Source: Thermoplasmata archaeon
GTDB lineage: Archaea; Thermoplasmatota; Thermoplasmata; Lutacidiplasmatales; UBA184
Assembly: GCA_030037265.1 (NCBI GenBank)
Contig: JASHRQ010000046.1
Span: 1-33,593, forward strand
Reading direction: 5' to 3'
Length of the DNA: 33,593 bases
In this document: positions 29,506 to 29,703 of the stretch, piece after piece
How positions within the stretch are numbered: position 1 is the stretch's first letter
How the letters are laid out: each line of letters starts with the position of its first letter
Translations under genes and position numbers: made by a program
Notes under the pieces: generated by a model
The model's input: the letters and a program-made list of their open reading frames with translations, nothing else
Databases searched by the model: none
Told to the model about the DNA's origin: nothing

Positions 29506-29530
29506 GGTCGAACTACTTCCCTAGGACCGG

Positions 29531-29638
29531 CGACCCGCGCACGAGGTTCCCCGCCCGGACGCAGGGCCCGGTTCGGGCCCTGCGTCCCACGGGCGTACGG
29601 AGGAAGATTCTCGGGGCAGCACCGGATTCCTCGGGTCG
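29531..29638 (-). ncRNA. Candidate structured leader or small RNA upstream of aIF1
   Basis: A perfect 14-bp inverted repeat (29557-29570 with 29574-29587, three-base loop) is extended by CGCCC/GGGCG (29552-29556, 29591-29595) across a three-base bulge. Outside it, CGACCCG (29531-29537) pairs with CGGGTCG (29632-29638), closing a fold of 108 nt. A clear TATA-like box on the minus strand (29651-29658) would start transcription at about 29628-29632, near the outer stem. The strand is inferred from that box. It is not a tRNA: no T-arm or D-arm pattern fits. It could be the 5' leader of the aIF1 mRNA or a separate RNA. Confidence 0.45.
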
Positions 29639-29650
29639 ATGCGGGCGGAC

Positions 29651-29658
29651 GTTATAGC
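29651..29658 (-). promoter_or_regulatory. TATA-like box upstream of the hairpin and aIF1
   Basis: GCTATAAC on the minus strand is one of the clearest TATA elements in the window. No plus-strand gene lies within reach, so it points to the hairpin and aIF1. Confidence 0.55.
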
Positions 29659-29703
29659 CCCTGCGTCGGGACCGAACGGTGGGGCGCGCGCCGCGCGCAG
29701 ACC

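Follow-up and report, generated by a model that had tools for sequence, protein, structure and literature searches.

The gene for the initiation factor aIF1 is preceded, in the Thermoplasmata archaeon analysed here and in its relatives, by a short open reading frame (mini-ORF) that is predicted to be leaderless and that ends beside the aIF1 start codon. The mini-ORF is known from 73 species (60 in a first set, 13 in a second) belonging to three genera of one family, and is very probably coupled to aIF1. We consider it probable, given the arrangement of the sequence elements, that aIF1 is translated by termination-reinitiation after this leaderless mini-cistron. The elements read directly from the DNA are the promoter position, the start codon, the frame, the stop position, an SD-like motif and the lack of selection on the encoded peptide.

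Results

Layout of the aIF1 locus

The window, the whole 33,593-nt stretch of DNA that was analysed, is one contig of a 1.67-Mb MAG. A PF01253 profile search found aIF1 as the sole SUI1 gene in this genome (Table 1). The relatives with an aIF1 93–96% identical to that of the window are Thermoplasmata archaea. Where the flank of a relative is readable, the 3' end of the permease gene is followed by the promoter, then by a leader of ~90–140 nt, then by aIF1.

Table 1. Features of the aIF1 locus in the window
Feature	Position	Strand	Remarks
ABC permease gene, upstream of aIF1	ends 29704		
TATA box (CTATAACG) of the mini-ORF/aIF1 transcript	29657-29650	minus	equivalents in relatives
Mini-ORF, predicted leaderless, 33 codons (MLPRESSSVRPWDAGPEPGPASGRGTSCAGRRS); GTG start 29622, TAG stop 29523-29521	29622-29521	minus	conserved start, frame and stop
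Perfect 14-bp hairpin, 3-nt loop, within mini-ORF	arms 29587-29574/29570-29557	minus	only in window genome
Outer 7-bp pairing CGACCCG/CGGGTCG	29531-29537 / 29632-29638		
15-nt gap from mini-ORF stop to aIF1 start codon, weak SD-like GGGAAG	29506-29520	minus	commonest layout, 19/60
aIF1 (SUI1 family), second cistron, ATG start, 105 aa	29505-29188	minus	PF01253 match above curated cut-off

The strong TATA box noted in the original prediction is real, and the six genomes of the window's genus all carry an equivalent ~34 nt upstream of the mini-ORF start. It was also correctly noted that aIF1 has no promoter of its own at leaderless distance; a distant, strong and conserved promoter lies upstream instead. 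The implication that the TATA box has no gene at leaderless distance was mistaken: the GTG of the mini-ORF lies 34 nt downstream of TATAA in the window genome, and this ORF had escaped notice owing to its GTG start and its length of only 33 codons. Since TATAA precedes the GTG or TTG by ~34 nt in the window's genus, transcription is predicted there to start 4–5 nt upstream of the codon.

The sequence logo of genus g5 (49 sequences) contains a BRE (AAACG), a TATA element (TTCAWR) at −30, a near-invariant T at −11 and a pyrimidine-purine step at −2/−1, followed directly by GTG; the distance from the TATA-like motif to the start is exactly 30 nt in 42 of the 49. Five genus-g6 sequences have their start 34–39 nt past the TATA element; with this spacing, their TTG starts are assigned with less certainty and fit the leaderless pattern less strictly. 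In most species, promoter spacing and initiator place the mini-ORF start at the predicted transcription start or no more than ~5 nt from it. Many g5 genomes have an ATG in the same frame 12 nt before the GTG; it was rejected as the start because it is unconserved and occupies the −11 promoter position. A matrix made from the aIF1 promoters gave too few matches to be of use when scored on other genes.

Conservation of the mini-ORF

The mini-ORF frame is open throughout in all 60 relatives of the first set, its first in-frame stop falling in the interval from −20 to +10 relative to the aIF1 start codon. A stop in this interval occurs in 4 and 10 of the 60 for the other two frames, and in 7.8 ± 2.1 for shuffled leaders (maximum 15/60 in 300 trials). 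The 60 sequences are highly diverged, with just 12 pairs at 72% identity or above and ~49 clusters. Because the start in this set was chosen partly by eye, we applied an automatic rule (best promoter score, at most 1 nt off the fixed spacing) to species not used before. All of these conformed (4/4 and 9/9, a total of 13/13); the other frames conformed in 0 and 0 cases in the set of four and in 1 and 3 cases in the set of nine.

Across species the mini-ORF has ~25–42 codons, with a near-constant second codon (CGN or CCN). One genome (G024) has two aIF1 copies, on contigs C14 and C46, with a GTG mini-ORF on both. In another (G009, contig C8) a 40-codon GTG ORF with a TATA-like element forms an ATGA overlap with the start of an ABC ATPase gene near aIF1; this is possibly a similar mini-ORF, and has no clear equivalent in the window. 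No relative was found in the viral contigs searched. Coupled short ORFs elsewhere (~0.8 Mb) did not clearly exceed a control with CTG pseudo-starts, which leaves the idea of a general genomic device unsupported. We found no description of an archaeal uORF on aIF1 in the largely open-access literature searched.

Substitutions between ten close pairs are spread evenly over the codon positions of the mini-ORF (66/65/65), and are distributed 19/12/283 in aIF1 of the same pairs. Indels in the mini-ORF are absent or overall frame-preserving in these pairs, and no shared sequence was found in the middle of the peptide among the relatives. Start, frame and stop are thus retained while the amino acids drift, which argues that translation matters and not its product; judged by this pattern, the peptide is not what selection maintains.

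The stop-start junction

Most often, ~12–15 nt separate the mini-ORF stop from the aIF1 ATG. The stop overlaps the aIF1 start as ATGA in four species and lies just beyond the ATG in two; as in termination-reinitiation pairs, the upstream stop overlaps or is close to the downstream start in 60 of 60 relatives. An SD-like motif, counted as strong at a duplex energy below −5 kcal/mol with the family's own 16S rRNA 3' end as the anti-SD, occurs in the last 16 nt before the mini-ORF stop in 52 of the 60, and at the usual SD position of aIF1 in 10. Complementarity to the anti-SD peaks just upstream of the stop (−8.2 kcal/mol, vs −3.3 kcal/mol for codon-shuffled mini-ORFs). The window genome has only a weak version of the motif. 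Stop position and SD-like motif together are, in sequence terms, the layout of termination-reinitiation, a process demonstrated for archaea in Haloferax, with intragenic SD motifs contributing to varying degrees (PMC6728339).

Two further candidates at the end of the mini-ORF were rejected. A hairpin that would sequester the SD was visible by eye and gave a weak signal in one test (z −0.38 vs +0.48 in control windows), but lost significance once shuffling was confined to the 5' side. The tail CCGTAGGAAACCTGC (L072, L085, L097), a possible mimic of helix 45 when compared with the family 16S sequence CTGTAGGGGAACCTGCAG, was limited to one clade.

Folding of the leader

The original prediction had described this region as structured RNA, with a perfect 14-bp stem and outer pairings enclosing 108 nt. 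The stem is exact, and is the longest perfect short-loop inverted repeat among those listed for the window; the outer pairing exists, but 108 nt is the span of this 7-bp pairing. The window genome does fold better here than dinucleotide shuffles, both on the minus strand (29506–29658; z −2.4, 5/200 shuffles equally good) and on the plus strand (z −3.4). The fold is not conserved, however. The mean leader folding z over 60 distinct relatives is −0.07 (sd 0.99), and coding controls at the same loci gave −0.44 (aIF1) and −0.10 (permease). Leaders of congeners gave +0.3, +0.9, +1.0 and −0.5, the only outliers within the genus being the window genome (−2.2) and G005 (−2.3). For a hairpin near the 3' end of the leader, shuffling restricted to its 5' side gave a null result too (z −0.16, SE 0.11). 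The region has no match to an Rfam family, a tRNA search of it found none, and no further copies of the hairpin were found in the window genome. Since the leaders of relatives fold no better than shuffles, the 14-bp hairpin is a peculiarity of the window genome.

A partial third copy of the hairpin arm (GACGCAGGG) lies at 29659–29670, directly upstream of the TATA box. As far as seen it is confined to the window genome, and could be due to chance or to local duplication.

Start codons of the mini-ORF and of initiation-factor genes

The mini-ORF starts with GTG in 66 of the 73 species, with TTG in 7 and with ATG in none; the start codon of aIF1 is ATG in 59 of 60. Mapped onto the aIF1 tree, TTG requires five changes (at least four on supported branches) and ATG none. 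Start-codon exchanges in background orthologue pairs comprise 28 A-G, 4 G-T and 1 A-T. Under this spectrum, which is rough, the absence of ATG among five changes has p ~3e-5, and p ~2e-3 with the count restricted to the three TTG starts that are best placed.

A conserved sub-optimal initiation site is thus present in front of the factor's own gene, as start-stringency control supposes, but aIF6 and apparently aIF1A have non-AUG starts too. In family f1 genomes (L183–L242) aIF6 starts with GTG or TTG and never with a readable ATG, and aIF1A apparently starts with GTG across the family, as far as readable; ~43% of background starts are non-ATG. The initiation-factor genes of family f1 may therefore share non-AUG starts that are not specific to aIF1, which weakens the case for feedback.

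aIF1 in other lineages

In sister genera that have an aIF1 of another type and lack the mini-ORF, aIF1 itself starts with GTG or TTG (13/13 genomes), and in related soil archaea it starts with TTG in most loci. In most other Thermoplasmata families examined (L153–L182), aIF1 directly follows a gene ending IARILTVQKEEE, whose 3' end contains an SD and which joins aIF1 at a TAATG or TGATG. This gene is probably uL29, so that aIF1 would be coupled there to a ribosomal-protein gene. Since this gene has the same layout of SD and overlap, the mini-ORF may have replaced it as the ancestral upstream partner of aIF1.

The aIF1 of family f1 is divergent (47–62 bits to PF01253, vs roughly 63–89 elsewhere in the class), and its nearest matches outside the family are soil archaea labelled Bathyarchaeota. 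Two types of aIF1 occur within the family.

Discussion

Because the mini-ORF extends from the predicted mRNA start to a point beside aIF1, aIF1 is probably made by ribosomes that translated the mini-ORF first. From the elements described above we infer a transcription start, translation, reinitiation and, more hesitantly, feedback. Transcription of a bicistronic mRNA would begin 0–5 nt upstream of the GTG (sometimes TTG) in most species, and a ribosome would initiate on this 5'-terminal codon and translate the mini-ORF. It would terminate beside the aIF1 start codon, held in most species by the SD-like motif before the stop, and reinitiate at the aIF1 ATG. The act of translating would matter and the encoded peptide would not. 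With feedback, aIF1 would lower its own synthesis through the non-AUG start of the mini-ORF.

The feedback step draws on two precedents: aIF1 is reported to destabilise non-AUG initiation complexes (PMC6237735), and eIF1 limits its own level through a poor start context (PMC5823381, PMC6237735). Since aIF1 disfavours non-AUG codons and the mini-ORF start is invariably non-AUG, we propose tentatively, as a possibility that falls well short of probable, that aIF1 autoregulates via a leaderless mini-ORF with an obligatory non-AUG start, whose translation is needed and whose peptide is irrelevant. The mini-ORF could also be a constitutive coupling device without feedback, the non-AUG start merely setting the level, and to this we give a little under an even chance. 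On that account, aIF1 left its ancestral place behind the apparent uL29 and the mini-cistron substitutes for the lost partner, enabling translation without a good SD; the same SD-plus-overlap layout behind the gene of the other Thermoplasmata families fits it, as do the GTG starts common in these genomes, those of aIF6 and aIF1A included. It leaves unexplained why ATG is absent from 73 species when A-G is the commonest start-codon exchange.

Two other readings concern the nature of the conserved element. That it is a small functional protein co-expressed with aIF1 would agree with the conservation of the ORF, its fairly narrow length range and its near-constant second codon, but we regard this as very unlikely: the three codon positions of the mini-ORF change at equal rates, while third positions take 283 of the 314 substitutions in aIF1, and the central part of the peptide has no sequence in common between relatives. 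That the element is a folded 5' leader, or else an independent small RNA, is at least as improbable. The perfect stem and the z of −2.4 that speak for it belong to the window genome, whereas the relatives average −0.07 and Rfam has no matching family, and RNA alone leaves a conserved reading frame unaccounted for. Neither the distinct small RNA nor the folded control element suggested in the original prediction is supported, the fold being unconserved and the local hairpin insignificant; control of aIF1 through the leader is still plausible, the conserved element being a predicted leaderless ORF. When a leader of a high-GC archaeon looks structured, leaderless GTG/TTG mini-ORFs should be the first thing to look for.

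If aIF1 is translated and regulated through the mini-ORF as proposed, three genera have retained a leaderless upstream ORF before one gene, that of the factor that polices start codons. The system would be an archaeal counterpart of the start-codon-stringency autoregulation of eIF1 and IF3, and it would become testable whether all three domains regulate a fidelity factor via a poor start codon on its mRNA. In E. coli, infC (IF3) is autoregulated via an AUU start codon that the factor disfavours. There too the synthesis of a fidelity factor hangs on a disfavoured non-AUG start, but the AUU is infC's own and stands on a leadered mRNA, whereas the non-AUG codon here belongs to a separate mini-ORF. 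The autoregulation of eukaryotic eIF1 (PMC5823381, PMC6237735) is similar in that a homologous fidelity factor is reached via the type of site it rejects, with wide conservation; it differs in using eIF1's own AUG in poor context, and not the 5'-terminal GTG or TTG of an upstream mini-ORF, for which feedback is hypothetical.

Mycobacterial leaderless small ORFs (PMC4633059) are likewise short and leaderless, with many located upstream of annotated genes; they are bacterial and are not known to be linked to an initiation-factor gene. The coupled gene pairs of Haloferax volcanii (PMC6728339) share with the mini-ORF and aIF1 an upstream stop that adjoins or overlaps the downstream start, an SD inside the upstream ORF and a downstream gene that lacks normal signals for de novo initiation. 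Both cistrons of those pairs are ordinary genes, whereas the upstream cistron here is a predicted leaderless mini-ORF of ~35 codons that encodes an unselected peptide and serves one gene.
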